A stretch of DNA of 64,000 bases, taken from Candidatus Aphodovivens avistercoris. GTDB lineage: Bacteria; Actinomycetota; Coriobacteriia; Coriobacteriales; Eggerthellaceae. This document shows positions 16,701 through 50,036 of the stretch, piece by piece. Position 1 is the first letter of the stretch; every line of letters starts with the position of its first letter. The notes below the pieces were generated by a model. That model was not told the origin of the DNA. It did no database searches and was given only the letters and a program-made list of their open reading frames with translations. The stretch covers positions 1 through 64,000 of the forward strand of contig DVIW01000038.1 in assembly GCA_018710945.1 (NCBI GenBank), in the 5' to 3' direction. The position numbers and the translations under genes are program-made.

Positions 16701-19700
16701 CTAGCGCACCTCCCCTTCGCGACGGAACATGCGGTACGCCCACAGGCCCACGCCTGCCAGGCCGCATGCGCCTACGACGATGCCCGCCACGGGCAGCCAC
16801 TGCGGCAGCCCGCCAAGAACGGACCCCTGTTCCGCCGCAGCCGCGTCATCTGCGGAAGCGTCGGCCAGCAGCGCCTTGGCAGAGCCGGCCGCCGCCGCGC
16901 TGACCGCAACGTCCTCGCCATCCTGCGCATCCTGCTGCACCGCGTCGGCGGCGTTCTGCACGAGCGGGTTGCCCGTCAGGATGAGAGGAGCCGTCTTCGA
17001 GGGGTTGCTGCCAGTATCGTCAGTCGTGGAAGGGTCCTTCTGGGTTTCGTTCTCATTCTCGTTCCCGGAGCCGCCGTCGGAACCGTCGTCCCCCTTCCCG
17101 TCATCGGTGGCGGGAGGGTTCGGGAAACCGCTCTCCGACGGAGCGACGGCGAACAGGGTGCCGGAATCGTTGACGTAGTACAGCGTGCCATCGGGCCCGC
17201 ACGCCACGGAAGTCATCGAGTATTCCTGATGGTCCTCGTCGGGCAGGTAGGCAAGCTGCGCCTCGGCGTCGCCCACCTTGTACAGGTAGATGCCGCCCGG
17301 CTTGGCGTTGCAGGTGAAGTACACGTAGGTCCCCGACGCCTGCGTGGACACGAGCGGCGTGGACTTCGACTCGGTGGGCAGCGCGTTGCCGCCGCCGTAC
17401 GTGGTCACGGAGCGCTCCACCTTCAAGGACGCCTCGTCGATCACGGCCAGCACGCCGCCGTACGTCGTTGCGCCCCATTGGTTGGTCGTGCCCTCTATCG
17501 AAGCGCCGGTGAGGTAGATCTTGCCGCCCGCCACCGTGGGCGTGGACGTGGTGGAAGAAGCGAACTTCACGGCACCGAGCTCGCGCACCGCGCCCGTTTC
17601 GGCGTCGATGGACAGCTTGTGCAGCACGCCGTCCTTCGAAGCCACGAGCGCCGTGCCCTCTTGCGTGCCCGCCACCACGGAGGAACGGATCTGAACGCCC
17701 AGATCAAGGGAGGAAGCCACCTCGCCCGTCGTGGCGTCGAGCACGGTCAGGCTCCCGTTGTCGTCGCCGATGACCGCCCAATCGCCCAGGATCGCCGCGC
17801 CCGACCAGTAGTAGCCGCATTCGCTGTTGGCATGGCTCCATTTCACCGAGCCGTCCGCCAGGCTCACGCACAGAACGTAGCCGCTCGCCGATCCGTCATC
17901 GGAGGGCTTCGAAACGGTGGCGAAGTACACGCAGCCGTTCGAGATCGTAAGCGTGCTGAGCGACTGATGCGCACCCTTGCCTTCGATCTGGGAGAGCGTG
18001 CCGGTCACCCATACGGTGGCCAGCTCGTCAGCGGTGAGCGCCTGCAGGCGGCCACCCGTGAGCGGCACCACGATGATGCCGTCGGAATACACCATGCGCG
18101 CGATCGAGTCGATGTCCGCCGCCAGCGGGGCGGTTTTCAGCACCTCGCCCGTCGCCGGGTCGCGCTGCTGCAGCTCGTCGCCCAACGCCACGTAGAGGTA
18201 CGTGGTGCCCGTGGCGGGATCGGTTGCGAAAATCGGGTCGGAGATGTAGGTGCCGTACTCCGTGACGGGGTCCTTCATCTGGTCCTTCCACACCTCTTCG
18301 GCGCCCGTCGTGGGCGTGGGGGCGTCGGTCGCCGCAGCGCCGGTGCCGAAGCCCGGCCAGCTGGAATCCCAGTCGGGGCGCTCGGCATCGGGGTCGGTCG
18401 GGAACTCCTCCTCGTCGCCGAACGAAGGGATGTCGGAGCGGAAGGAGCTGTAGTAGAAGAGCACCTCGTCGCCCGTGGCGAACTCGTGTCCCTGCTCCAG
18501 TGCGCCGCCGTTGTCGGTCACTTCGCCCAGGTAGTCGAGGATGAGGTCGTATCCCTCCCCGTTGACGTAGGGATACCAGGCTTTGCTGCCGTCCTCCACC
18601 ATCCACCAGTCGGGATCGACTTCCGCGCCGACAAGCGCTTCGCCTTCGGGAGAGGTAACGGACTTGATGTAGACGCCCGAGCCGTCGCTGTCATCGAGGA
18701 CGACAAGCTCATGTTCGAGCCCCGTCGCCGCGAACAGCGCCTTGGCAACCTCCACGCCCGTGGCGCCCTTGTACACGCTGATCGTCGTGGCAGGCGCCCA
18801 TTCCTGCGGATTGCCGTCCGCATCGGCGCCGATGACGCCGCCCTGCATGGTGACGACCTCGGTCAGAGCGTCGGCAGAGCCGTACTGCACCTGCACGGAG
18901 TCGTCGGCCTCGATCACGCGATTGGGGTCGGAGCATGCTTCGCCGTTGACGAAGACCGTCCACTGCCGGTCATCGCTCTCGTAGTACAGCTTCTTGCCTG
19001 AAGAAGAGGCAAGCCCGTTGACCGAGAACGACCCGTTGGGATTGTTGTAGAAGTCGGCCTCGATGCCCGCCGCCTTGAACTGCTCCTCCAGATAGGCGAG
19101 CAGCTTGGTGCCCGCCGTCACGTCGACCGTCCCTTCAGGCACCCACACATCGGGCAGATCGGACGCCGACGCGTCGATGACCGAGAACGTGGTGTCGATG
19201 CGGTTGAGCTCATCGTCGCTCGGCAGCGTGGCGCCCCAGGCAGAGTAGTACCAGGTGACTGTCATGCCCTCGGTCAAGGTGTCGAAGGAAACGCCCAGCT
19301 CTGACGATTTGCCATTCACGAACGGCTGCCAGTAGCGCCCCGTCGCATCGTCCCAACCGAGCACCTCCCCCGTAAACGGGGAGGTCATCGTCTCCAGATA
19401 CGCGCCAGACTCGCTGAAAGACGCGTAATATTCCTGACCGAGCGCTTCGAACGCCGCCTCCGAAGCGTCCCACGCGTTCGGCTGCGCGCCGTCCTCGATG
19501 GGCACCGTGACCGTAGTCTGCCCCCAGAACGTGTCGGTTCCGTTCGCATCGGGGCCGACCACCTTCACGCGCGCATGGATGGAGTCTTGGGAGACATCCG
19601 GAATCGACGAGATGTTGAAGCACAGGACGATGTCCTCCGACGTCTGTACGGCATCACCCAGCTGGCCAAACCATCCCGTACGCTCGCCATCACGGAATAC

Positions 19701-20795
19701 GTACCAGTTGGCGAAGTCGTTGCTCGTGTTCGTCGTACGCCCGTCCGGCGACGTGATGGACTTCACGATGTCGCTACCCATGTCCGTGCCGAACTCGTAC
19801 TGGAGTCCCAGCTGGTCGAACGCCGCAGACAGCACCGTCTTCATATCGGAACCTGCCGTCACCGTTACCGGCAGCTCATACATCCAGTATTCGTAATGGG
19901 ATGAAGAACCTTCGTACACCTTGCCGATCACCGACACCGTGGGCGCCACCATCGCGGCAGGCTCATCGGAGTTGCCATCGTCATCGCCCAGCTCGCTTTC
20001 GTCGGGAAGCTCGTCCCCCCAAAGCGAGTAATACCAGACCACTTTGTCACCCGGCTGCAGCGTCAGGCTCCCAGCGCCCAGGTCAGATGGCGCTCCGTTG
20101 ATGTACAGCTGCCACATCATTTCCGTGGCGGCATCGTAAGCCGCGAGCGTAACGTTGGGATCATGCGGAGAGGTGATGCTTTCAAGCGACCAGCCGTACT
20201 GCCCGTCTGGATCGTAGCTCGCCGTGATGCCCTTTTGCTCGAACAACGCCTCAGTAAGGTCGGCAGCCGTGGAGCCCTCAGGAAGCTCGATGGTCGTTTC
20301 GCCCGCCCACAGCTCGTCGTTGCCCGCCGCGTCATTGCCGATGATCGCTATCGACGCCTCGATCTGCTCCTCGTCCGCAGCACCGTCATCAGACGAAAGC
20401 GCCTGCGCCCCGCTCGGCGCGCTTGACGCCGCTGCTGCTGCGGGGTCGCCAGAGGCATTCCCGTCCGCCTCCATGGCAGCATCCGAAGCGTCACCCTCAA
20501 GCGAATCGGCGCTCAGATCAGGCTGGCCGTCTGCGTCCTGCCCGTCTTCGCCACCGCCAACCGTCTCCGACGACGCAGCGGCTTCTTCGCCGTTCCCCGC
20601 TTCGCCTTCCGTCGTTGCTTCGCTTTGCACCGCCACCTCGGCGTCCGGCGCAGCGTCAGACGACGCGCCGGCGGACGCCCATGCCGCCATGGGCACGAGG
20701 CTGAACGCGAATGCAAGTGAGAGCAGTACCGTGAACGCCTTCGAGGCGAGGGTCGCCGCGCGCGACGGGGCGCGGCACGTAGTGGATCCGGACAT
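16701..20795 (-). CDS. giant surface protein with five DUF4430 domains and a PQQ-like beta-propeller
   Basis: A 1364-residue exported protein. A signal peptide covers residues 1-40, followed by a ~100-residue acidic low-complexity region. Five DUF4430 repeats lie at about 146-262, 285-395, 407-522, 534-640 and 645-785, each with a W-x-x-(Y/F)-(I/V)-NG-type motif such as WQLYINGAP, WQPFVNGK and WYPYVNGE. A PQQ/BamB-like propeller (about 830-1245) follows, then an acidic Thr/Ser/Asn-rich linker and a C-terminal span (about 1333-1354). DUF4430 is the transcobalamin-C-like domain, so corrinoid binding is inferred, supported by the cobalamin riboswitch just upstream. The ATG at 20795 follows GGGAGAAAGG by 8 nt. 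It is the first gene of a five-gene operon. Confidence 0.88.
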   Translation of the reverse strand: MSGSTTCRAPSRAATLASKAFTVLLSLAFAFSLVPMAAWASAGASSDAAPDAEVAVQSEATTEGEAGNGEEAAASSETVGGGEDGQDADGQPDLSADSLEGDASDAAMEADGNASGDPAAAAASSAPSGAQALSSDDGAADEEQIEASIAIIGNDAAGNDELWAGETTIELPEGSTAADLTEALFEQKGITASYDPDGQYGWSLESITSPHDPNVTLAAYDAATEMMWQLYINGAPSDLGAGSLTLQPGDKVVWYYSLWGDELPDESELGDDDGNSDEPAAMVAPTVSVIGKVYEGSSSHYEYWMYELPVTVTAGSDMKTVLSAAFDQLGLQYEFGTDMGSDIVKSITSPDGRTTNTSNDFANWYVFRDGERTGWFGQLGDAVQTSEDIVLCFNISSIPDVSQDSIHARVKVVGPDANGTDTFWGQTTVTVPIEDGAQPNAWDASEAAFEALGQEYYASFSESGAYLETMTSPFTGEVLGWDDATGRYWQPFVNGKSSELGVSFDTLTEGMTVTWYYSAWGATLPSDDELNRIDTTFSVIDASASDLPDVWVPEGTVDVTAGTKLLAYLEEQFKAAGIEADFYNNPNGSFSVNGLASSSGKKLYYESDDRQWTVFVNGEACSDPNRVIEADDSVQVQYGSADALTEVVTMQGGVIGADADGNPQEWAPATTISVYKGATGVEVAKALFAATGLEHELVVLDDSDGSGVYIKSVTSPEGEALVGAEVDPDWWMVEDGSKAWYPYVNGEGYDLILDYLGEVTDNGGALEQGHEFATGDEVLFYYSSFRSDIPSFGDEEEFPTDPDAERPDWDSSWPGFGTGAAATDAPTPTTGAEEVWKDQMKDPVTEYGTYISDPIFATDPATGTTYLYVALGDELQQRDPATGEVLKTAPLAADIDSIARMVYSDGIIVVPLTGGRLQALTADELATVWVTGTLSQIEGKGAHQSLSTLTISNGCVYFATVSKPSDDGSASGYVLCVSLADGSVKWSHANSECGYYWSGAAILGDWAVIGDDNGSLTVLDATTGEVASSLDLGVQIRSSVVAGTQEGTALVASKDGVLHKLSIDAETGAVRELGAVKFASSTTSTPTVAGGKIYLTGASIEGTTNQWGATTYGGVLAVIDEASLKVERSVTTYGGGNALPTESKSTPLVSTQASGTYVYFTCNAKPGGIYLYKVGDAEAQLAYLPDEDHQEYSMTSVACGPDGTLYYVNDSGTLFAVAPSESGFPNPPATDDGKGDDGSDGGSGNENENETQKDPSTTDDTGSNPSKTAPLILTGNPLVQNAADAVQQDAQDGEDVAVSAAAAGSAKALLADASADDAAAAEQGSVLGGLPQWLPVAGIVVGACGLAGVGLWAYRMFRREGEVR

Positions 20796-20826
20796 GCGGA
20801 AAACCTTTCTCCCAGGGCCAAAGCTT

Positions 20827-20987
20827 CGACGGGAGGTTCTCCGACTTGTTCGCAGGAGGCGCTCCGGATGCACCTGCGCCTGCGAAGTTACGGTTACTGG
20901 TATAGCCGGGGACTTGCACCCCGATTCCCCTGAGCGCCCCGGCGACATCCGCCGCCCGGCACCCGCGCGCACAGCGCGCCTCCGTCG
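20827..20987 (-). promoter_or_regulatory. cobalamin riboswitch for the giant DUF4430/ECF operon
   Basis: Read on the minus strand, the RNA has the cobalamin core AGGGGAATCGGGGTGCAAG followed by TCCCCGGCTATACCAGTAAC, and a B12 box AAGTCGGAGAACCTCCCGTC. A closing P1 stem can be drawn between CGACGGAGG (20979-20987) and CCTCCCGTCG (20827-20836). The same box is followed by GGGAGAAAGG, which serves as the ribosome site of the gene at 20795, so control is probably at translation. The CCGCNACTG part is a variant (ACCAGTAACCG). Confidence 0.85.
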
Positions 20988-21009
20988 TGACCAACGATCG
21001 AGCACCTGC

Positions 21010-21015
21010 ATTCTA
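21010..21015 (-). promoter_or_regulatory. probable -10 element (TAGAAT) of the giant DUF4430 operon
   Basis: TAGAAT on the minus strand lies about 23 nt before the riboswitch P1 stem. The same arrangement, TACAAT followed by GCA(A/G)GTG, occurs at the second giant gene. No good -35 hexamer lies 16-18 nt upstream (CGCAGA at 17 nt), which is what one expects of an activator-dependent promoter. Confidence 0.55.
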
Positions 21016-21372
21016 ACCCACGCAAAGCAGCGTCTGCGTTGAAAAGAATGCAACGATCGCGCCATCTTGCATTTGGCACGAACCCGCTCTTGCATTACTG
21101 TGCCGAATGCAGTGCGAGCGTGCCATTGGGCATGCAAAGGATCGCGTTTCCTTTCCATGTCTTCTATAATATTATCATATGCTTCATTTTTTAGAAGCTA
21201 TTGCTATTTCTTTTATTAAATTATGTTCCATTTGTCTTGATTCATATTAGTATCCTGATGAGGACAGAATTCTTCGAAGACGAATCGACCGCATTACATG
21301 GTATAAAGTACGCAACTTAACATGGGCTACCACAAACCCACACGTAACCCTCTCCAGTCAAGGCGGTATTTC
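21016..21372. promoter_or_regulatory. divergent regulatory region between the DUF4430 operon and the Crp-like genes
   Basis: No gene. The part near 21049-21079 holds a dyad (minus strand AAATGCAA, 13 nt, TTGCATTC) whose distance to the -10 element matches the one at 50.1 kb. A separate inverted pair, TGCATTTGGCAC (21068-21079) and GTGCCGAATGCA (21100-21111), overlaps it. The right half (about 21155-21260) is very AT-rich for this genome, and probably holds the promoter for the rightward regulator genes. Confidence 0.6.
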
Positions 21373-23943: not shown

Positions 23944-23993
23944 TTGCCCACCTCCAGCAGCGTCGCCGTGCCCCCAGCATGCGGAGACGAAAA

Positions 23994-24030
23994 GGGCTGC
24001 GGGACCGCCAGAGCCCCGCAGCCCTGTTTT
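23994..24030 (-). terminator. bidirectional Rho-independent terminator
   Basis: A 10-bp stem GGGCTGCGGG (23994-24003) with CCCGCAGCCC (24015-24024) is flanked by TGTTTT on the plus side and by AAAA, giving TTTT on the minus strand. It lies just after the DUF1847 gene and closes the cobalamin-controlled mutase operon. It also separates that operon from the MFS remnant. Confidence 0.8.
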
Positions 24031-24077: not shown

Positions 24078-24749
24078 TTACTCCAGCGGGCGCTGAGGCG
24101 GGAAGTCGGGAGTGAGCAAACGCTTATAGTACGACCCGGTGGTGTACAACGCAGCAGCAGGATTATGCGCAAGCACGCGATCCTTCACGATCAGATACGT
24201 CACCGGAGCCTCCGAATGCTTGATGAACAGCGTGTCGTGCCCCACGCACAAGCCCACGATGACGTTCAGGTCCGTCTTCTGCTCGTTGAGAATCCGAGCC
24301 TGGACGATGGGGTTGCAGGTAGACTCATGCCCGCCCGGCACCACCTTCACGTTGTCGGGAATGCCGGCAGCCGTCTTGTCGATTCCGCCAACCTTGCACA
24401 CGATCGCGCACACGCTGTCAATGCCCTTCGCCTTCAGCACTTTCACGAACTTTTGGGTTTCATGAACCAGGCCCATGCACGTTGCGATGCCGATCTTTTT
24501 GGCGCCGATCTTCTGGGCGAACAGGCAGATCTCCTCCACGCGCGTCAGCCGACCATAGTACAGGCCCTCGATCTCGGCAGCCGCCTTGAAAACCTTTTTC
24601 GTCCAAGGATCGTTGTTGTATTGTCCAAGCGCGTACTGGAAGTCAGCATCATCGGTGCGCTTGGTCATGCAGAAGCTCGGCCAATCGCTGTCGAGGTGAT
24701 CGCAGTGGAACACGCCGCAGTTCGCGCAACTGAGATTGTCTTTATCCAT
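24078..24749 (-). CDS. DUF1847 cysteine-rich protein
   Basis: A 223-residue cytosolic protein with an N-terminal Cys cluster (SCANCGVFHCDH) and a Rossmann-like core with KKIGIATCMGLVHE and VCKVGGIDK. These are the features of the DUF1847 family, for which metal binding has been proposed. No enzymatic role is established that I know of. The ATG at 24749 follows AAGGGGG. It is the last gene of the riboswitch-controlled mutase operon, 41 nt after the adenosyltransferase. Its many Cys residues suggest a metal or Fe-S cofactor, or a role in corrinoid or redox handling (inference). Confidence 0.8.
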   Translation of the reverse strand: MDKDNLSCANCGVFHCDHLDSDWPSFCMTKRTDDADFQYALGQYNNDPWTKKVFKAAAEIEGLYYGRLTRVEEICLFAQKIGAKKIGIATCMGLVHETQKFVKVLKAKGIDSVCAIVCKVGGIDKTAAGIPDNVKVVPGGHESTCNPIVQARILNEQKTDLNVIVGLCVGHDTLFIKHSEAPVTYLIVKDRVLAHNPAAALYTTGSYYKRLLTPDFPPQRPLE

Positions 24750-24790
24750 CGTATCCCCCTTGTCAGATGAAACCATCTAAAGAACCTGGG

Positions 24791-25291
24791 CTATTCGCCC
24801 TCATCTTCATAACGAGCCAAAATGTAGCAAAGATCGGAAACGCGGTTGAAGAAAGCGAGCATCTCGTCACTCACTTTTTCCGTTTCAGAGAAAAGAATGA
24901 GCGTGCGTTCGCAGCGGCGAGCCACCGTGCGCGCCACATGCAAAGCAGCGGAACACGGATTCTCCCCAGGGATGAGGAACGAGAACCCCGAAGGAACCTT
25001 TTGGGAGATGGCGTCGATCTCCTGCTCGAGGCCCTCCACATCTTCGCTGCAGATCCGTTTCCCCCCTCCAAGCGTGGCGAGCTCCGCCATCGCCGAGACG
25101 AGCGTCTGCTGCAAGCCGTAGAGGATCCTTCCGGTAGTCGGGTGCTGGGCGAACGCGCGCGCCATCCCCAAAGACGCCTGGAGCTCGTCAACCTCTCCGT
25201 ACGCATCGACGCGCGGACAGCACTTCAAAACGCGTTCGCCCGAGTAAAGCGACGTTTCGCCTTTGTCCCCAGTGCGGGTGTATATCTTCAT
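24791..25291 (-). CDS. cob(I)alamin adenosyltransferase, PduO type
   Basis: A 166-residue enzyme that transfers the adenosyl group of ATP to cob(I)alamin, giving adenosylcobalamin. Family motifs are YTRTGDKGETSLYSG at the N-terminus (ATP site), RVDAYGEVDELQA, ARTVARRCERTL and FFNRVSDLCYILARY. The length is a little shorter than the usual 180-190. It stands between an LctP permease gene and the DUF1847 gene in the mutase operon. The product is the cofactor required by the mutase encoded upstream, so the operon supplies its own AdoCbl. Confidence 0.94.
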   Translation of the reverse strand: MKIYTRTGDKGETSLYSGERVLKCCPRVDAYGEVDELQASLGMARAFAQHPTTGRILYGLQQTLVSAMAELATLGGGKRICSEDVEGLEQEIDAISQKVPSGFSFLIPGENPCSAALHVARTVARRCERTLILFSETEKVSDEMLAFFNRVSDLCYILARYEDEGE

Positions 25292-25408: not shown

Positions 25409-27010
25409 TTAGTAGGTAAGTGCGAAGATCTGCGACATAACCACCGAAATGGTCACCAGAATAAGAGCGTAAGGAATAACGTGCCTCAGCACTGCGCCTT
25501 CCGAACCGATCTTGTCAATAGAGGAAGATGCCTGCTGCAGCTTAACCGGCGTGATAACGGAGGCCAAACCGGACGCCACGGCGCCAGAAGCAATAACCAC
25601 CAGCGGGTTCAACCCCAGAATCTCAGAGCTGATAAGGTTGTAGTTCGCGAACAGCGCCACGGTCGAAGTCTCGGAACCAGTCACGAAGCCGGACACCAAG
25701 CCGAGGAAGCCATTGGCGATCGGATAGAACCAACCAAACGCATCGGCAGCGGCATTCGCCCACATCGAGATGATGTTCTTGGTCTCGTCGACCATGACCC
25801 ATGCGCCACCATCGCCTACTGCTGCATAAGCTGAGTACATCATCACGTAAGCGATGCAGAAGTAGATGATGGAGCTGATGGTAGGTGCCGCCCAACGCTT
25901 GTTCCACTTCTGAAGGATGGTCTTCCACGTCCCCTTCTTGGGCTTGATGATGAGCACCGAGGCCAAAATCGTAGAGACGAACACCCAGAAGAACGCCTGC
26001 CAGATAATGCGCAGCGGCTGACCGGCGTCACCAGGGAACAGGATGACGCGCATCTCCCAATCTTTGTACAGCAGATCGTACAGCGGCGTAACGAAGTTGG
26101 TGACGAGGCAGAATGCGATCAGCAGAATCCAGGGGCTGAGGGCCTTCCACAGCGGCATGGTCTTTTCGATCTCGCGATCCTCTTCCGTTAGAACCGAAGT
26201 ATTGTAAACCTTGATCTTTCTGATCTTCATGTACAGGATCATGATCACGAACGTCACCGCAGCAGCTATAACGCCCGTCAGCACGATGCCGACGCCGATG
26301 TAGGACACTGCCATAGCACTGAAGCCCATGCCGAATCCGGTGATAAGGGCGGGCACGATGCCCTCCTTCAGCAGCTTGGGACCTCCGGCCATCATCAGCA
26401 TCGCCAGCGCGATGAACGGCGTGATGACGGGCAGGTAGTGCGAGAAGAAGATCGAGATGTTCTGCACCGTGGGAGCAGCGCCGTTGGGCATGACGAATCC
26501 GGCTCCGGTCAAGATGTCGGACAACGTGACCACGGGAGCAGCCAGCATGGCGTAGGTGCACAGCGAATCGTAGCCGATGCAGGGCAATGCGATGGACACG
26601 ACCACCGAATAGCCCAGCGCGAACATGATGGGCGAAAGGATGACCGTGGGCGTGGCTCCGACCGACACGAGCGCAGTGCCGATGATCACGTTGATGATCA
26701 TGATCTGACATGCCTTGCTGTCAGGCGCGACGGCCTTGATGGCGACCACGATGCGCTGCAAGGCGCCGCTTTCCTGCATGAAGGTGATCTGCAGCAAACC
26801 GAAGAAGCCCATGCCGGTAACCGCCATGGAGGCCAAAGCGCCCTTTGCCGAAGCGATAAGTCCGATGTCCAACGCCGTGTCGAAGAAGAAATACGCGATG
26901 ATCAGCGTAAGGATCCAACCCACGACGCCGGCGATGTCGCCGCGGATCTTGAAGCCGATGATCATGATGACGATAACGATCACCGGGATGAAAGAGATGA
27001 GCAAATCCAT
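25409..27010 (-). CDS. LctP-family carboxylate permease
   Basis: A 533-residue polytopic membrane protein with about 14 hydrophobic spans. VGATPTVILSPIMFALGYS and GFVTGSETSTVALFANYN match the L-lactate permease (LctP/GlcA) family, which imports lactate, glycolate and related 2-hydroxy acids with protons. Here the neighbours are a B12-dependent mutase and a PrpD-like enzyme, so the substrate is probably the acid used by that pathway (inference). It starts 33 nt after the S subunit gene; 117 nt separate it from the adenosyltransferase. Confidence 0.88.
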   Translation of the reverse strand: MDLLISFIPVIVIVIMIIGFKIRGDIAGVVGWILTLIIAYFFFDTALDIGLIASAKGALASMAVTGMGFFGLLQITFMQESGALQRIVVAIKAVAPDSKACQIMIINVIIGTALVSVGATPTVILSPIMFALGYSVVVSIALPCIGYDSLCTYAMLAAPVVTLSDILTGAGFVMPNGAAPTVQNISIFFSHYLPVITPFIALAMLMMAGGPKLLKEGIVPALITGFGMGFSAMAVSYIGVGIVLTGVIAAAVTFVIMILYMKIRKIKVYNTSVLTEEDREIEKTMPLWKALSPWILLIAFCLVTNFVTPLYDLLYKDWEMRVILFPGDAGQPLRIIWQAFFWVFVSTILASVLIIKPKKGTWKTILQKWNKRWAAPTISSIIYFCIAYVMMYSAYAAVGDGGAWVMVDETKNIISMWANAAADAFGWFYPIANGFLGLVSGFVTGSETSTVALFANYNLISSEILGLNPLVVIASGAVASGLASVITPVKLQQASSSIDKIGSEGAVLRHVIPYALILVTISVVMSQIFALTY

Positions 27011-27043: not shown

Positions 27044-27490
27044 TTACTCGATCCCGAGGTCTTTGTTCAGGATCTCTACCGTATCTTCAGCGGTAACGGT
27101 GTTCTTGAATACGCGCGTGAAGCCCATGTCCTTGAAGCGCTGCTCGATCTCGGGCCACTTGTTCACCAGATCGAGCGGCGCGGCGACTTGGCCGCCGGCG
27201 TACAGCAGGATGTCCCCTATACCTGCTTCGACGCACTTCTCACGCATGCCCTCACAGTCGATGATCCCCATTCCGTACAGCGACGAGCACAGAATGGCGT
27301 CAGCGTTGATCTCGATGGCGGCGTTGATGAATTCCTCCTGGGGAACCACAGCCCCCAGAAACGCCACCTTGTAGCCCGCCTCGCGGAACGCCTGGGTGAG
27401 CACCCAACCTCCGATCATGTGAGCGTCCTTGCCGATGGTGCCGATGACCACCGCCTTGTTAGGCGTCTTCTTCTGCTTCTGTTCGCTCAT
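27044..27490 (-). CDS. B12-binding subunit of a glutamate-mutase-like enzyme (S subunit)
   Basis: A 148-residue corrinoid-binding protein close in size and sequence to glutamate mutase S. The cobalt-ligand motif DxHxxG is present as DAHMIGG at about residues 25-31, followed by SSLYGMG and LYAGGQV, the remaining parts of the base-off/His-on nucleotide pocket. The ATG at 27490 follows GGGAGG by 8 nt. The E-like subunit gene ends 29 nt upstream in the transcript. The cofactor site is therefore conserved even though the partner subunit has a changed substrate site. Confidence 0.93.
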   Translation of the reverse strand: MSEQKQKKTPNKAVVIGTIGKDAHMIGGWVLTQAFREAGYKVAFLGAVVPQEEFINAAIEINADAILCSSLYGMGIIDCEGMREKCVEAGIGDILLYAGGQVAAPLDLVNKWPEIEQRFKDMGFTRVFKNTVTAEDTVEILNKDLGIE

Positions 27491-27519: not shown

Positions 27520-28992
27520 CTACAGCTTGCCGCCGATGCGCGATGCATACTGCAGGTCGCTCACCAGCATGTTGAAATCGAGCGGACGGCCCTCCAGCTT
27601 CGCGCGGCTCTCCAGCTTCTTGAGGTGATAGTCCTTGACCTCCTGGGGAACGGGCAGATCGCCCGTGCTCCAATAGCGCTGCGCCTTCTCGGCATCGCGC
27701 ATCAGGCGAACGTTGCCGTGGTTGTGGACCCATGGCGTGAGCATCGCGTCGATCCAACCGGCCTCGACGCCCTTGCACAGGGCAGCCACCATGTCGCCGT
27801 CTCCCACTTCAAGGCACTTGTCCAAAATCGAGCGGACCTCCAGCTCGATCATCTGCTCCTCAAGGCGGTAATCCTCGCCCGTCATATCAACGTGCTGCTT
27901 GCCGATGAGCGTTTCCAGATGGCGTGCCATGCGCACCGCGTTCGCCATGCCTTCCGCAGTGGGCGTGGCAAACGCCTCGTCGCGGCACTTGAGGATGGCG
28001 GTGTCGATGCCTGCGAGGAAGGTGTCGACGGCGTTCCAGGCGATCATCGCCTCCGCCTCGTCGATGCGCGCCGGCCAAGCGCCCAGGAACGGGAAGGCAC
28101 CGGAGGCGAATTGGACGTCCTTGTAGCCGAACTTGTCCAGATACTCGCGCGCCAGCTTCTCGGTGACGCGGATGGTGGCGCAGTCCTCCACCAGGTGCAT
28201 GTTCAAGCCAAGCTCGAAGTAGAAGTACTTGACGCCCTGCTCGGCACCCAAGATGGTCTGAGCGGTCATGATCAGTGCCTTCAAACCCGGTGAGTCGTAA
28301 CCGGTTAGGTTGCTGGCGATGTGCGGCATGATGGGCACGCCATGCTCGGTGTAAATGGCGGCAAGGCGCGATTCGTACTGGTTGATGCGGATCTCATCTG
28401 CCAGATCGATGTACTTGCAGTGGGCAATGACTTCCTGCAGAGAACGGCAATTGCACGCGTTCCAGCCTGCTGCCAGCGCGAACTCCGAGGCCAGACGGCC
28501 GTCTTCGTCAGTGGAGTTCATAGTGATGGGCGCATCGACTTCCTGTTTGATGCGCCGCGCGGCATCGATGCCCAGGTTTACGATGGGATAACCGTTCAGC
28601 ATCGTCTCGCCCGCTTCGCGCGTGCGCTGGATGCCCACCTCGGCCATGTCAAAGCTGCATTTGCGCGTATAGGAATCGGTGTAGAAGTTCCACACGCCGT
28701 TGGGAAGCAGCGGCGAGTTTTCCTCCACGTACTTCACGCCCTCCAGCATGAGCTCCATGCTGCCATGGCCGAACTGCGGCTGCAGGTTGTGAATGCCCTT
28801 CTCCCGCGCATTCATCTGCCGCTCGGCGTAGTTCTTGCCAGCAGACAGCTCCTTCGCTGCAGCGATGCATTCGTCAAGATCGGCGATCTGCTCGCTCGTC
28901 TTCCACATCGGAAGCACTTCTTCGTTCCTGATGCGGAAGAACTCCTCGTCGTCCAAGCGCTTGTTGCGGACGATCTCCCCTTGTCTTGCCAT
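27520..28992 (-). CDS. catalytic subunit of a divergent glutamate-mutase-like enzyme (E-like)
   Basis: A 490-residue TIM-barrel subunit related to glutamate mutase E (methylaspartate mutase). From memory of the Clostridium cochlearium enzyme, glutamate is held by Arg66, Arg100 and Arg149, with Glu171, Tyr177 and Tyr181 nearby. By alignment these are Gln73 (LQPQFG), Arg110 (DSYTR), Asn159 (ITMNSTDEDGR), Asn181, Glu187 and His191. Only Arg100 is kept; the Lys in VKTPHEA is kept (ILKCRDEA). I infer a related radical carbon-skeleton rearrangement on a different acid, probably one lacking the amino group. The ATG at 28992 follows AAAGGTC-type sequence. Confidence 0.88.
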   Translation of the reverse strand: MARQGEIVRNKRLDDEEFFRIRNEEVLPMWKTSEQIADLDECIAAAKELSAGKNYAERQMNAREKGIHNLQPQFGHGSMELMLEGVKYVEENSPLLPNGVWNFYTDSYTRKCSFDMAEVGIQRTREAGETMLNGYPIVNLGIDAARRIKQEVDAPITMNSTDEDGRLASEFALAAGWNACNCRSLQEVIAHCKYIDLADEIRINQYESRLAAIYTEHGVPIMPHIASNLTGYDSPGLKALIMTAQTILGAEQGVKYFYFELGLNMHLVEDCATIRVTEKLAREYLDKFGYKDVQFASGAFPFLGAWPARIDEAEAMIAWNAVDTFLAGIDTAILKCRDEAFATPTAEGMANAVRMARHLETLIGKQHVDMTGEDYRLEEQMIELEVRSILDKCLEVGDGDMVAALCKGVEAGWIDAMLTPWVHNHGNVRLMRDAEKAQRYWSTGDLPVPQEVKDYHLKKLESRAKLEGRPLDFNMLVSDLQYASRIGGKL

Positions 28993-29038: not shown

Positions 29039-30451
29039 CTACTCACCTAGCCTTCCAGCTATTCGTCCGAACACCACGCATTCAGCTATGCCGTTACCTC
29101 CTAACCTGTCGATGCCATGAACGCCGCCGCACACCTCGCCTGCTGCGAACAAGCCCGAAATGGGCTTTTGCCATATGTCGAGCACGCGAGCATGGGTGTC
29201 TATCCGCAAGCCGCCCATGCAGTAATGGACGGACGGCCATTGGGGGATCGCATACCAATCTCTTCCCGCAAGAAACGACATCTGGGGAGTCATGGGCTTG
29301 CCGAACTCTTCGTCCACTCCGTTGACGATCGCCTCGTTGTGAAGGCTGACGGTGCGGGCGAACACAGCAGGGTCGAACCCCACCGCTGAGGCAAGCGCTT
29401 CGGCGCTTTCCGCCCTTACCGCGCGTCCCCGCCGCACCAGCTTTTCCACGTCCTCTTTGCCGATGCCCAGCTGATGGAAGACGGTGCCGGTCAGAACCGA
29501 GTAGGTGGGACCGCTGCCCAAGCTCATTTGCGCCGAGGAAACCTCTTCGCGACTCGCCAATTCGTTGACGAAGCGCCCTCCTTCTCCCGTCACGTAGATG
29601 AGGCCGTACCCCGTGCCCGAATAGCAAAGGAACGCGCCTTGATCTATGCCCCCCGTCGCGGGATCGGCGCAGGGATACAGCTGCACGAACTCCATGTGAA
29701 CCGTATCCGCGCCCACCTCTTCGGCGTAGCGGACCATCTCGCCCGTCGCGCCTTTGTGATTGGTACAGTTGTAGGAGTCGGTAAGGGTGGGCCGATACGC
29801 CTGGCGCAACTCGACGTCGCGCGCATAGCCGCCCGACGCGATGATGACGCCCCTCAGCGCTTCGATCCGCAGCCGCTCGGCAGCCGACCCGCACGTCGCC
29901 TCGACGCCACGCACCCGACCGCCTTCCGCGACCAACCCCTCCACCTTCGTTTTCTTGCGCAGCTCGATGTTCCCGGCGACAAGGCATCTAGCCTCGAGTT
30001 TGGCTATCGCCTCCGACCCCGAGCACGCCATCTGGTAGCTGCGGTACGCGGAGTGTCCGCCGATGCGAGGCAGGCTGTTCCTGAAGGGAATCCCCGCATC
30101 CACCAGCAAGTCCAAGCCAGCTGGCGCTTCTTTTGCCAGCAGCTCCACCAGCTCAGGAAAGTTGTAGTTTCCGCCAGCAGCCAGCGTATCCCGGTAGTGG
30201 GACTGCCACGAGTCGTCTCCGAGTCCGAGTTTTTCCCGAAGCTTCAGCTTGCTGTCCCAGCAGCAGTACCCGCCGCCAGCTATGCGGGAGTTCCCCCCGA
30301 TGTAGGGCATCTTCTCTAAGACGAGGACGCTGCCACAGCGCTTAGACGCCTCCAGCGCAGCAATCAGGCCCGCATACCCCGACCCCACGATGACCGCATC
30401 GAAGGATTCATTCCAACGGGTCCGGTCCGCGTTTTCCATCATGATCGCCAT
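29039..30451 (-). CDS. FAD-dependent oxidoreductase, fumarate-reductase-like flavoprotein
   Basis: A 470-residue cytosolic flavoprotein of the FAD_binding_2 (succinate dehydrogenase/fumarate reductase/3-ketosteroid dehydrogenase) family. The dinucleotide fold is VIVGSGYAGLIAALEA; GGRFVNELASRE, HYCMGGLRID and GIDRLGGNGIAECVVFGRI are family signatures. No signal peptide, heme domain or FMN-attachment site is seen. The region that holds the catalytic Arg402 in soluble fumarate reductases reads LTGTVFHQLG here, so a different substrate is likely; an alignment is needed. It is 14 nt from the PrpD-like gene, and it may reduce or oxidise a C=C intermediate of the pathway. Confidence 0.85.
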   Translation of the reverse strand: MAIMMENADRTRWNESFDAVIVGSGYAGLIAALEASKRCGSVLVLEKMPYIGGNSRIAGGGYCCWDSKLKLREKLGLGDDSWQSHYRDTLAAGGNYNFPELVELLAKEAPAGLDLLVDAGIPFRNSLPRIGGHSAYRSYQMACSGSEAIAKLEARCLVAGNIELRKKTKVEGLVAEGGRVRGVEATCGSAAERLRIEALRGVIIASGGYARDVELRQAYRPTLTDSYNCTNHKGATGEMVRYAEEVGADTVHMEFVQLYPCADPATGGIDQGAFLCYSGTGYGLIYVTGEGGRFVNELASREEVSSAQMSLGSGPTYSVLTGTVFHQLGIGKEDVEKLVRRGRAVRAESAEALASAVGFDPAVFARTVSLHNEAIVNGVDEEFGKPMTPQMSFLAGRDWYAIPQWPSVHYCMGGLRIDTHARVLDIWQKPISGLFAAGEVCGGVHGIDRLGGNGIAECVVFGRIAGRLGE

Positions 30452-30464
30452 CGCGTCGCCAGCT

Positions 30465-31829
30465 CTACATCGTCATGAAGTGGAACAGCTCGTCCACGTT
30501 TTCCATCTCGGCAACGGCAAGGCACTTGGCGTAGATCTCGTCAGCGCGCTCAGTCAAAAACGGCTTTTTGGCAAAGTCAATGCAGTCGTAGAAACGACGT
30601 TTGAAGTCAGCGTCCTCCAGCGGCGCCTCCTCGGTTCCGGGAGAGACGTCGATGGAGCCCTCGTACACGCTTCCGTCCTTGCAGACGACCTTGATGTCGG
30701 ACGCATAGTGCGGACGGACGTGGTCCATGCTCGGGTCGCACACCGATTCGATCTTCTTCGTGAACTCGAGCACTTCTTCGTTCAGAATGAATTCAGGCTC
30801 GAAGTGCTCCAGCTTCACGCCTTCGCGCACCAGCGCGTTGGCAATGCAGTACGGGGTGCCGAACTGCGCGTTGACCTTGGGGTTGTCGCCCAATTTGAAA
30901 TTGCCCACCAAGTTGTAGCCATACGTCGGCATCGTCAGTACGATGTGCTCGACGTCGGCGGCCTTGAAACCGTGCTCGGCCATCATGTTGAGGATGAGTT
31001 CGGTCGAACCTTGGGTCATGCCGCAGCTGGGATATTTCTTGAAACCGAGAGTATAGGTGCGCAGCGGCTCGCTCCCCAACGTAGCGAACACCTCGTCGCC
31101 GTTGGTTCGTCCACCGGTGAACAGATTGAAGTAGCCGTACACGCCGTCAAGCCAGTCGAGCGGGCCGGTGATTCCTTTCGAAGCGAGGCGCGCGCACTCC
31201 ACGCCCGCCTGACCAATCCACCCCTCGATGACGCGCACCGCCAATGCACCGTCGATATTGCACTGAAAGCTGCCGGCGCAGCGGTTGAACGCAAGCGAGA
31301 GCGTATGGAATATCTCCTTAGCATCCATGCCCCACACCTTGGCGGCTCCTGCCGCAGCGCCGAATACGCCAGCGATGCCCGTAGGATCGAAGCCGTGGTA
31401 GTCCTCTTCGAGCAGGTTCAGGCGCAAAGCGACCTCATCGCCCACCGCGATGGCGGTGATGAAGTCCTTGCCGCTGATCCCGCCCTTCTCCTCGGCTATC
31501 GCGTAGATGGCTGGAATCATGCCGGAGCCGACGTGCATGCCCGGCTTGATGTGGTCGCATACATCCAGCGCACGGCCCATGACGCCGTTGACGAACGCCG
31601 CCTGCTGCGCGGGTACCTTGCCGCCGTGGACCAAGATGGTGGATTCCTTTTTGCCGCCAAGATCCTTCGCGATCTCGACCACTTCCTCGCACCCCATGTT
31701 CGAATTGCCAGCTATCACACAGCCCACATAGGTGAGGATCTGCTTCTTCACGATGTCGATGTCGACCTCGTTGAGATCTTCGAACGTCGTGCTCTCGATG
31801 AACGAGACAACCTTGTCTTCTGCCCTCAT
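30465..31829 (-). CDS. MmgE/PrpD family protein
   Basis: A 454-residue protein of the family that includes 2-methylcitrate dehydratase, cis-aconitate decarboxylase and iminodisuccinate epimerase. Characteristic segments are QQAAFVNGVMGRALDVCDH near residue 90, the helical domain GIAGVFGAAAGAAKVWGMDA, and FKKYPSCGMTQGSTELIL near the middle. The ATG at 31829 follows GAAAGGAAG. Known members act on small di- or tricarboxylates, which fits a pathway handling branched dicarboxylates. The exact reaction cannot be read from the sequence. Confidence 0.88.
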   Translation of the reverse strand: MRAEDKVVSFIESTTFEDLNEVDIDIVKKQILTYVGCVIAGNSNMGCEEVVEIAKDLGGKKESTILVHGGKVPAQQAAFVNGVMGRALDVCDHIKPGMHVGSGMIPAIYAIAEEKGGISGKDFITAIAVGDEVALRLNLLEEDYHGFDPTGIAGVFGAAAGAAKVWGMDAKEIFHTLSLAFNRCAGSFQCNIDGALAVRVIEGWIGQAGVECARLASKGITGPLDWLDGVYGYFNLFTGGRTNGDEVFATLGSEPLRTYTLGFKKYPSCGMTQGSTELILNMMAEHGFKAADVEHIVLTMPTYGYNLVGNFKLGDNPKVNAQFGTPYCIANALVREGVKLEHFEPEFILNEEVLEFTKKIESVCDPSMDHVRPHYASDIKVVCKDGSVYEGSIDVSPGTEEAPLEDADFKRRFYDCIDFAKKPFLTERADEIYAKCLAVAEMENVDELFHFMTM

Positions 31830-31912
31830 GGTCTTCCTTTCGCTCTTTGTCCGCCGCATGAAGCGACGCATCCCCCTGCACATTCCCCTTCGAACGGAAG
31901 AGGAATAGTCGC

Positions 31913-33427
31913 CTAGTGGGTCATCAGCCCTTCACCGTGCGATGACGGAATGCTGAGGTTCGCGCGGTTTGCATAGCCTTCCGTCACCGTTTCGCCATGG
32001 GCTCCCACTTCCGCTTTGGTCACCGGCTTGAGGTACTTCTTCGCTATGCGCAACGCGGCATCAGGGTGCGTTTGCGACAGAAGTCCCATGGCGTAGATCA
32101 CGTAGGTCTTGTCGAGATAGAAATCGGGATTGATCGGGCGAAGGCTTTCCGGGTTGCGCAGGTTGTATTTCGCCGCTGCCAGAATGCGCTCGGGATGCTC
32201 GCCGTAACGGAAGATTCCGCCCACGCCAATGACGCTGTGAACGTCGAGCAGGTTCTTCCCTCTCTGAACGTCCACCTCTCCGATGGATATGGTCTCCTTG
32301 TGCGCTGTGCCTGCGTGGCGGCGCACCGCCACATCGGCAGCCGAGAACGCAAGGGCCACGTCGAACGCGCGCTCAGTCTCATTCTCGGGCTTGTGGGACG
32401 TAGTGCTCGACAAGAACCGAGTGAACTCATCGGGATCGATCGAATCCGCATCCGCATCAGGGTCGAGCATCGCCAGATTGCTCCGCAGGACATCAGATCC
32501 CACCAGCTCGCAGATCGTATGGGCATTCCATCGGATGCCCAGGTCGCCTTCAACCGTTCTCTTGACCTTGCCTTCGGGCAAGCCGCGAATGATGGCATGG
32601 GGAGAAACGGGCTTCACTTCTTCGACCGAATGGACGTTGATGGTAGCGCCACCAATTTCCAAGATCAGCACACTGCCCATACCCGGCTCGGTGCCAGTCC
32701 CCTCGGCCAACAGCGTTGCAGCATCCAGCGTCGCTTTCGGGGTGGGAATGATGTCGCGGTGAACGAGCTCGGCGGCCTTGTCAAGACCCTTCGCTTTCGT
32801 GATGTGCTTCACGAAGATGTCACGGATGATCTCCTGCGCAGACTCAACGCATACGCGATCAACCTCTGGCAGCACGTTGTCCGCAAGGTAGACCTGCTTG
32901 CCTTCCGCAACAAGCTGTTCTTTGATGTCGTCCTGAACAGCTGCATTGCCGCATACCAGAATCGGACAGTCAACCGCCGATTTGGCAAGCATGCCGGCAT
33001 TGTGAAGGATGATGTCCTTGTTGCCGCCGTCGGTGCCGCCCGCCAGCATAATAATGTCGCAGCGCTTCTCTTCAATCTCGGCGATCTGCGCCCGCGTGAG
33101 CTCGAACCCGTATGAGCCGATCACCTTCGCGCCAGCACCCAGGCACGCCCTCTTCGCCGCCTCAAGCGTCAGCGAAGGAACAAGTCCTATGGCGACCATC
33201 TTCAAACCACCCGCCGCAGACGAGCAAGCATAGCGCGCCGCATAATCCTCGATGCCCAAACCACATTGCCGTTCAAGCTCGTCAAGCGCCTTGTTCAAAC
33301 CGATGCGGACGTCGTCTTCGATTGTCGTAGACGACTGCGCTGTTCCCAGCACCGTTTCCGTGTCCAAATCGACGGCGGTCACCTTGGTGTACGTGCTGCC
33401 GAAGTCGATTAGCAGATACGCTTCCAT
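31913..33427 (-). CDS. MutL-type reactivating protein of glutamate-mutase-like system
   Basis: A 504-residue actin/hexokinase-fold protein of the glutamate mutase MutL family. The phosphate loop is LIDFGSTYTKVTAVD at the N-terminus; KRCDIIMLAGGTDGGNKD, LEIGGATINVHS and VIGVGGIFRYGEHP follow. The family is thought to restore B12 mutases whose cofactor has been inactivated, or to handle the corrinoid. The ATG at 33427 follows AGAAGGAG. It is the first gene of the operon, about 340 nt downstream of the cobalamin riboswitch aptamer. A longer open frame runs back through the leader but has no protein-like content. Confidence 0.9.
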   Translation of the reverse strand: MEAYLLIDFGSTYTKVTAVDLDTETVLGTAQSSTTIEDDVRIGLNKALDELERQCGLGIEDYAARYACSSAAGGLKMVAIGLVPSLTLEAAKRACLGAGAKVIGSYGFELTRAQIAEIEEKRCDIIMLAGGTDGGNKDIILHNAGMLAKSAVDCPILVCGNAAVQDDIKEQLVAEGKQVYLADNVLPEVDRVCVESAQEIIRDIFVKHITKAKGLDKAAELVHRDIIPTPKATLDAATLLAEGTGTEPGMGSVLILEIGGATINVHSVEEVKPVSPHAIIRGLPEGKVKRTVEGDLGIRWNAHTICELVGSDVLRSNLAMLDPDADADSIDPDEFTRFLSSTTSHKPENETERAFDVALAFSAADVAVRRHAGTAHKETISIGEVDVQRGKNLLDVHSVIGVGGIFRYGEHPERILAAAKYNLRNPESLRPINPDFYLDKTYVIYAMGLLSQTHPDAALRIAKKYLKPVTKAEVGAHGETVTEGYANRANLSIPSSHGEGLMTH

Positions 33428-33769
33428 GCTCGCTCCTTCTTTCTTGACGAATGGGCATTTCAATGGGTCGGCCTCATCCAACCCGGCTGGCTCAGGCAAT
33501 TGCACATCGAGCCCCTCTTGGTTGAGGGAAGGAGGGGCTCGACATGGGGAAGCGAACCGCCAGGCAGGAGGGATCCACCCAGTCAGTCGCGAAGGAAAGA
33601 CTTGAACAGGAAGAACAGAAAGAACAGAAAGAAGAGAAAGAGGGGGAAAAGCGATCAGGGCGTGAAACAGGCGATCCGGATGCAGAGCTTTGCATGACCC
33701 ATCCTTTCCATTTCGCGCAAGCGCTCCGAAAAGCGCGACGCGCTGCATGAAAAGCGATAACTCGCCGCC
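33428..33769 (-). promoter_or_regulatory. long leader between riboswitch aptamer and the mutase operon
   Basis: No gene is called in these 342 nt. On the transcript strand there is a C/U-rich, G-poor tract at about 33592-33650 with repeated TTCTTTCTGTTC-like units, which would suit Rho loading. Next comes a strong hairpin TCGAGCCCCTC/GAGGGGCTCGA at 33507-33542 that lacks a U tract. The ribosome site AGAAGGAG of the first gene lies about 75 nt further on. The leader therefore has features of an expression platform, but the mode of control is inferred. Confidence 0.55.
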
Positions 33770-33932
33770 GTCATGCCATCTGCAGGCCGGCGCTCTGGCT
33801 TGGCTCTTCATTACGCTCGGGCAAATTCCCCAAGCTCTCGAACGATGCCTCACAGTTGCGGTACAGCGCGGGATTCTCACCCGCTTCCCCTTTGACCGGT
33901 TTCGGTCAACTCCTGCAGCTCTTATGCCTGCG
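33770..33932 (-). promoter_or_regulatory. cobalamin riboswitch for the mutase operon
   Basis: On the minus strand the classical elements are in order: AAAGGGGAAGCGGGTGAGAA, then TCCCGCGCTGTACCGCAACTG, and later AGAGCCAAGCCAGAGCGCC and GGCCTGCA as the B12 box. It precedes an operon for a B12-dependent mutase and an adenosyltransferase. The AT-rich stretch just beyond (33936-34006) probably holds promoters for this operon and for the divergent phosphorylase gene. Confidence 0.92.
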
Positions 33933-34033
33933 AAGTTTAGCCCGATGATTCAATTATTGCAATATCTGTTAATGATTTTTTTATTTTTTGTTATTATATT
34001 TGGGTATTGAAGAACGGCAAGGAGGTGATCGGA

Positions 34034-34795
34034 TTGTATCCATTGTTCGAGCATGACTACTCCGAACCGCGCAATCCCATGTCGCGAGAATGCTTCGGAA
34101 ACGCAGGAGAAGCCTTCCCTGAACGCTGCCTCGTCAGCTTCATGGGAGACGTTCTCAAACGACATGCGAAAACGAATCCCTGCCGCCAGATCGCCGTCCA
34201 CAAATCGGAGGCGTTCGGCTCCCCTATCTGGAAACAGCGAATCAAGGGTGTAGAGATCGCCTTCGTCCAAGCCCCTGTCGGCGCTCCAGCGGCAGGCATC
34301 CTTGTGGATTTGCTTATAGCCTCCGGTGTGAAAACCATCGTATCCTGTGGCGGATGCGGCGTGCTAAACCCTATTTTATCAGGTATTATCATTATCCCAT
34401 CGGACGCTTTGCGCGACGAAGGAACCTCATGCCACTACCTTGCCCCCAAGCGAGAAATAGCTTTGGATGCCCACATGGTAGAAGCCGCGAAACGCACGGC
34501 AATCAAACGTCATGCGCCTTTCCTCGCAGGGAAAGTATGGACCTCAGACGGGTTCTTCCGGGAAACTCCTTCGATCGTCAAGCGCCGAAAGGAGGAGGGA
34601 TGTTGCGCTGTCGACATGGAATGCTCCGCCCTGGCGGCAATAGCCCGGTTTTACGGCGCTTCCTATGGAGCCGTTCTCTACAGCGGAGACAGCCTTTCCA
34701 GCCCCGAAAGCCACGATCAAAGAGACTGGGTCAACAACAAGTCAGCACGAGAAGAAGCATTTTATCTTTCACTTGACGTATTATTATCGACATAA
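34034..34795 (+). CDS. nucleoside phosphorylase family protein (uridine phosphorylase-like)
   Basis: A 253-residue protein of the PNP/UDP phosphorylase family, which splits nucleosides with phosphate. SCGGCGVLNPILSGIIIIP, RDEGTSCHYL and the signature CCAVDMECSALAAIARF with GAVLYSGDSL are visible. I chose the TTG at 34034 because AAGGAGGTGAT lies at the ideal distance; an upstream TTG at 34007 has no site. The substrate base is uncertain. It is divergent from the cobalamin-controlled operon, and a role in salvage of nucleosides such as 5'-deoxyadenosine is possible but unsupported. Confidence 0.82.
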   Translation: MYPLFEHDYSEPRNPMSRECFGNAGEAFPERCLVSFMGDVLKRHAKTNPCRQIAVHKSEAFGSPIWKQRIKGVEIAFVQAPVGAPAAGILVDLLIASGVKTIVSCGGCGVLNPILSGIIIIPSDALRDEGTSCHYLAPKREIALDAHMVEAAKRTAIKRHAPFLAGKVWTSDGFFRETPSIVKRRKEEGCCAVDMECSALAAIARFYGASYGAVLYSGDSLSSPESHDQRDWVNNKSAREEAFYLSLDVLLST

Positions 34796-49876: not shown

Positions 49877-50036
49877 CGACGGGAGGTACTCCGACTTGTC
49901 CGCAGGGCGCGTAGAAAGCGTCAGGATTCTGCGAAGTTACGGTTACTGGTATAGCCGGGGACTTGCACCCCGATTCCCCTGGGCGTCCCGACGGCATCCG
50001 CCGCCCGGAACCCGCGCGCACCGCGCGCCCCCATCG
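49877..50036 (-). promoter_or_regulatory. cobalamin riboswitch for the Ig-repeat DUF4430 cassette
   Basis: Nearly the same RNA as at 20827-20987: the core AGGGGAATCGGGGTGCAAG and the following TCCCCGGCTATACCAGTAAC are identical, and the B12 box reads AAGTCGGAGTACCTCCCGTC. P1 can pair CGATGGGGG (50028-50036) with CCTCCCGTCG (49877-49886), with wobble changes relative to the first copy that keep the stem. The ribosome site GGGAGAAAGG again follows the box. Confidence 0.85.

Follow-up and report, generated by a model that had tools for sequence, protein, structure and literature searches.

A glutamate mutase-like B12 enzyme with an altered substrate pocket that probably rearranges an acid other than glutamate

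The window, by which we mean the whole 64,000-nucleotide stretch of Candidatus Aphodovivens avistercoris DNA that was analysed, encodes a glutamate mutase-like catalytic subunit that is probably an adenosylcobalamin (AdoCbl) mutase acting on an acid which is not glutamate and which has a different migrating half, a reading drawn from sequence comparison to which we assign a probability of roughly 70%. That the substrate is any acid other than glutamate is very likely. A preliminary description of this DNA had already proposed that another acid is rearranged by AdoCbl radical chemistry, and this proposal is now supported by a clade-wide switch of substrate residues, by intact cofactor machinery, by the absence of methylaspartate ammonia-lyase from the clade genomes searched and by gene partners that are not those of glutamate fermentation.

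The ATG-initiated frame from 28992 to 27520 on the minus strand (27520..28992) specifies a 490-residue protein that aligns with glutamate mutase E (GlmE) of Clostridium cochlearium (residues 8-481, E 3e-70) and scores 306 bits against PF06368 (Met_asp_mut_E; gathering score 26.6). It attains 295.8 bits against TIGR01503, below the equivalog cut-off of 390.1 bits. An AlphaFold2 model (pLDDT 88, pTM 0.90) matches glutamate mutase with a Z of 50.9 and an rmsd of 1.9 over 477 aligned residues at 30% identity, the next-best fold family being lysine 5,6-aminomutase (Z 24), and comparison with the methylmalonyl-CoA mutase fold gives a Z of about 21 at 8-15% identity. As modelled, the protein is a full-length glutamate mutase E fold. 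In the alignment, however, the residues by which the canonical enzyme holds glutamate are mostly exchanged: Arg66, Arg149, Glu171, Tyr177 and Tyr181 are replaced by Gln73, Asn159, Asn181, Glu187 and His191, while Arg100, Lys326 and Glu330 are retained as Arg110, Lys335 and Glu339, leaving Arg110 as the sole survivor of the three-arginine claw (Arg66/Arg100/Arg149). The same mapping had been made by eye in the preliminary description and is correct residue for residue; a corrected alignment might have restored the clamp, yet upon realignment the clamp residues are still absent. The mapping is further supported by the model, because Gln73 and Asn159 sit at predicted barrel strand ends. Where the by-eye account held that only Arg100 and the Lys of the VKTPHEA segment are kept, both are indeed present, but the segment reads LKCRDEA and its Glu (Glu339) and Ala are kept too. 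Crystallography of glutamate mutase assigns Arg66, Arg149 and Glu171, the last of which binds the substrate amine, to the glycyl (migrating) half of the substrate, and Arg100 with Tyr177 to the acrylate half (PMC9545868). Thus, the known contacts to the migrating half have been lost and the chief anchor on the acrylate side has been kept. The replacement of Tyr177 by Glu187 places an acid at the acrylate-half site, and Arg110 may pair with Glu187 instead of with the substrate.

These exchanges are not peculiar to one genome. Relatives that are 56-84% identical exist in bacteria of the human gut and of the termite gut. Among the Eggerthellaceae they are carried by two genomes of Gordonibacter and two of another genus, and among the Clostridia by Sporobacter termitidis, several Clostridiales from termite guts and one metagenome-assembled genome of a Peptococcaceae. 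A tree of GlmE homologues had been called for in the preliminary description, and in the maximum-likelihood tree they form one clade on a long branch (support 100/100, length 1.57). The clamp positions read Q/R/N/N/E/H in 13/13 clade sequences (that of the window included; two are incomplete), as against R/R/R/E/Y/Y in all 48 canonical GlmE sequences sampled, a contrast greater than chance would give. Thirty-seven aligned columns are invariant within the clade and different, yet at least 97% conserved, in canonical GlmE, and there is in addition a two-residue insertion; newly invariant across the clade are Arg183, Glu187, His191, His224, Asp162-Glu163 and the inserted Trp101-Asn102. Since the switched positions include Arg183, His224, Asp162, Glu163 and Trp101-Asn102, the pocket appears to be rebuilt rather than degraded or stripped. 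The earlier statement that the glutamate clamp is lost therefore holds insofar as its residues are replaced, but it is not a mere loss, as the clade has gained invariant Arg183, Glu187, His191 and others. It might be argued that the subunit has decayed or become non-catalytic, as the loss of the known substrate residues would allow. However, the frames are intact, the residues are invariant clade-wide, the cofactor residues are kept and a chaperone and an adenosyltransferase co-occur with the mutase. Moreover, GlmE and GlmS of the cluster are under purifying selection, with dN/dS relative to Gordonibacter as low as 0.10 for GlmE and 0.05 for GlmS at far diverged synonymous sites. Decay is thus highly improbable. 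Separately, two further non-canonical GlmE groups were observed (L027:991-2922(-), L028:1501-3408(+) and L048:1492-2937(+)): a GlmE fused with a GlmS-like domain (636-644 aa), which keeps the three Arg and has Pro-Trp-Phe/Tyr at the Glu171-Tyr177-Tyr181 positions, and one sequence in which Arg-Arg-Arg is kept but Thr, Ile and Pro occupy the His150, Glu171 and Tyr177 positions.

Judged by their sequences, the B12 subunit and the GlmL reactivase of the cluster look normal. The GlmS-like subunit (27044..27490, minus strand, 148 aa) exceeds the cut-offs of NF002612 and TIGR01501, matches PDB 1i9c_A (E 1.6e-39) and carries the DxHxxG motif as D22-x-H24-x-x-G27, which is invariant in 10/10 aligned S sequences, in agreement with the earlier remark that this subunit keeps its cofactor motif. 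GlmL/MutL, the reactivating chaperone (31913..33448, minus strand, putative start), scores 544 bits against NF040745 (cut-off 475), and a PduO-type cob(I)alamin adenosyltransferase (24791..25291, minus strand) lies over the TIGR00636 cut-off. The radical chemistry is very probably like that of glutamate mutase, and cofactor handling works like that of glutamate mutase. Conceivably, the enzyme is still a plain glutamate mutase with another mode of glutamate binding, given that the fold, the B12 subunit and GlmL are all the same. However, five of the six substrate residues are switched throughout the clade, and the S subunit and GlmL pass their equivalog cut-offs whereas E does not. In addition, methylaspartate ammonia-lyase (PF07476 over cut-off) was found in 0/11 clade genomes, several of which are metagenome-assembled genomes of unstated completeness, while it lies beside glmE in 2/2 canonical control genomes, and the gene partners of the clade are other ones. 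An ordinary glutamate mutase is therefore very unlikely, and we favour a mutase of another acid.

A cobalamin riboswitch (33768..33931, minus strand, RF00174, 42.6 bits) precedes the operon and occurs at the equivalent position in two Gordonibacter operons and two other Eggerthellaceae operons. Cobalamin riboswitches usually repress B12 supply genes; this one fronts an operon for a B12-dependent enzyme. Two AdoCbl-II riboswitches are also present in the window (20851-20944 and 49878-49992, both minus strand), each ahead of a large ORF, 16701-21158 (DUF4430) and 43180-49845 (bacterial Ig-like domain), respectively, possibly for B12 capture at the cell surface. From the cobalamin riboswitch the operon runs through GlmL, a PrpD-like protein, an FAD protein, GlmE, GlmS, an LctP-type (lactate permease family) transporter (25409..27010, minus strand, PF02652, 108 bits), PduO and a DUF1847 protein (24078..24776, minus strand, PF08901), a conserved member present in Eggerthellaceae clusters, to a strong terminator-like hairpin with a 14-bp stem (23993..24025, minus strand, a pattern match only) that is likely the operon end. 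Diverging from the operon is a nucleoside-phosphorylase/nucleosidase-family gene (34007-34795, plus strand), conserved there in other Eggerthellaceae, which might clear 5'-deoxyadenosine. A literature search found no publication on this gene cluster.

GlmL, the PrpD-like protein, GlmE and GlmS are clustered in most Clostridia of the clade as well, and hence in two phyla in all, although no PrpD was found adjoining the mutase in Sporobacter. The flavoprotein and LctP lie beside the mutase only in Eggerthellaceae among the clusters compared, LctP in most of these; because the reductase is absent from the Clostridial clusters compared, the reductive end of the pathway would be optional and outside the core. 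Of about 137 genomes of Eggerthellaceae, five have a close orthologue of GlmE, and these five and no others also have close orthologues of the PrpD-like protein (69-88% identity) and the FAD protein (64-70%), the next-best matches in the family reaching at most 33%, 31% and 38% identity, respectively. The neighbours of the termite clusters differ by genome (a CocE/NonD hydrolase, cupin-like and UroD-like proteins, ABC importers, a TPP enzyme) and pointed to no particular substrate. The cupin-like protein, of about 156 aa, is found near the mutase in termite-gut Clostridia (L009, L013 and L014), and for its L009 copy Pfam gives no match at E 0.001.

The two enzymatic partners bear on the nature of the substrate. 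The first, a divergent MmgE/PrpD protein (30465..31883, minus strand, PF03972 and PF19305), is a putative proton-transfer enzyme, either epimerase or dehydratase, whose model is closest to iminodisuccinate epimerase (Z 46.5) and which in alignment retains the proton-transfer pair His117/Tyr162. The position of bsIRG1 H151 is Asp166 and that of K200 is not Lys, both changes being present in 12/12 clade members; docking in bsIRG1 places this His and Lys on the carboxylates of cis-aconitate (PMC7347537). The second partner (29039..30451, minus strand) is a 470-residue putative enoate reductase of the flavocytochrome c/urocanate reductase family (TIGR01813, 368 bits, cut-off 285) in which the FAD domain is the sole domain detected, and the alignment indicates that the catalytic Arg and His and one carboxylate-binding Arg are retained. 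At the positions of fumarate reductase His365/Thr377/Glu378/Arg381, which we take to be the second (C1) carboxylate site, it has Tyr/Cys/Tyr/Thr, and its orthologues likewise have Tyr/Cys/Tyr, except that in two of them Phe stands in place of the final Tyr. In methacrylate reductase, which acts on a monocarboxylate, the counterparts of two of these carboxylate-site residues are lost (PMC4427408). That the mutase, the PrpD-like protein and the FAD protein have each lost carboxylate contacts suggests that the substrate carries fewer carboxylates than glutamate does. On the other hand, the invariant Arg183 lies two positions past the former Glu171 and could form a carboxylate site anew, which makes a dicarboxylate conceivable. 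Such a mutase would convert 2-hydroxyglutarate to 3-methylmalate, for dehydration to mesaconate by the PrpD-like enzyme and reduction to methylsuccinate by the flavoprotein, with Arg183 in place of Arg66/Arg149 to anchor the second carboxylate. In its favour, 2-hydroxyglutarate is a slow substrate of canonical glutamate mutase, Arg183 is new and invariant, the amine-binding Glu171 is lost, and the gene set suits a mutase, a dehydratase and a reductase. However, the flavoprotein is without the C1-carboxylate site of fumarate reductase and would suit an enoate lacking a second carboxylate, not mesaconate, which makes the dicarboxylate route unlikely.

A more appealing scenario is that the non-glutamate acid has the form HOOC-CH2-CH2-X and is likely interconverted with HOOC-CH(CH3)-X. 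AdoCbl on the S subunit would supply the 5'-deoxyadenosyl radical and the acrylate half of the substrate would probably still be held by Arg110 (GlmE Arg100). The migrating half should not be an alpha-amino-carboxylate, since the partners of one, Arg66, Arg149 and Glu171, are gone, and would now face Gln73, Asn159, Asn181, Arg183, Glu187 and His191; X could be acyl, hydroxyalkyl or aromatic, in any case a group that is uncharged or in some other way not glycyl. Import of the acid would fall to the LctP-type permease, the PrpD-like enzyme would move a proton next to the carboxylate of the mutase product, by epimerisation or dehydration, and in Eggerthellaceae the flavoprotein would then reduce the resulting enoate. 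This full scheme of mutase, PrpD-like enzyme and flavoprotein is tentative, and we infer its chemistry, step order and direction. We see about an even chance that the mutase is a free-acid B12 carbon-skeleton mutase whose reaction, the shift of a non-glycyl group on a probable monocarboxylic acid, is undescribed, and that it opens a likewise undescribed anaerobic pathway common to gut Eggerthellaceae and termite-gut Clostridia. As to individual acids, nothing found favours itaconate, methylsuccinate or methyleneglutarate, all three named in the preliminary description, in particular. Itaconate is without the HOOC-CH2-CH2-X skeleton needed for the rearrangement, and for methyleneglutarate the nicotinate-type partner genes are absent from the annotated neighbourhood. 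A route from 4-hydroxybutyrate via methacrylate to isobutyrate suits the gene list, but the hydroxymethyl radical migrates poorly and it is a candidate only.

To our knowledge, B12 enzymes catalyse only a few known carbon-skeleton mutase reactions in nature, most of them on CoA thioesters, and a coherent clade with a seemingly rebuilt pocket and fixed partner genes offers, in gut bacteria, a new reaction that can be tested directly. Annotation as "methylaspartate mutase" is likely, as the S and L parts pass their cut-offs, but it would mislead. The protein is Met_asp_mut_E by family and should not bear the name glutamate mutase, because it fails on the substrate residues that define that enzyme as well as on the equivalog cut-off. 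With GlmE/GlmS/GlmL of Clostridium cochlearium (1cb7/6h9e) it has in common the E fold, a separate DxHxxG-bearing S subunit, GlmL and the equivalents of Arg100, Lys326 and Glu330; it differs in that Arg66, Arg149, Glu171, Tyr177 and Tyr181 are replaced, in missing the TIGR01503 cut-off and in belonging to a clade without methylaspartate ammonia-lyase and with different operon partners. The PrpD-like partner shares the fold and the His/Tyr proton-transfer pair with iminodisuccinate epimerase, cis-aconitate decarboxylase and PrpD, but lacks the active-site Lys and second His of the first two. Likewise, the FAD protein shares the FAD domain, the catalytic Arg and His and one carboxylate-binding Arg with flavocytochrome c fumarate reductase, urocanate reductase and methacrylate reductase Mrd, whereas its second carboxylate site differs from both the urocanate and the fumarate pattern and shows a loss of the kind seen in Mrd. 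Methylmalonyl-CoA mutase with its epimerase possibly follows a like logic, in which a carbon-skeleton mutase is accompanied by an enzyme that shifts the proton alpha to a carboxylate, but the fold match of the window protein to that mutase is much weaker and its E and S subunits are separate, as in the GlmES type.
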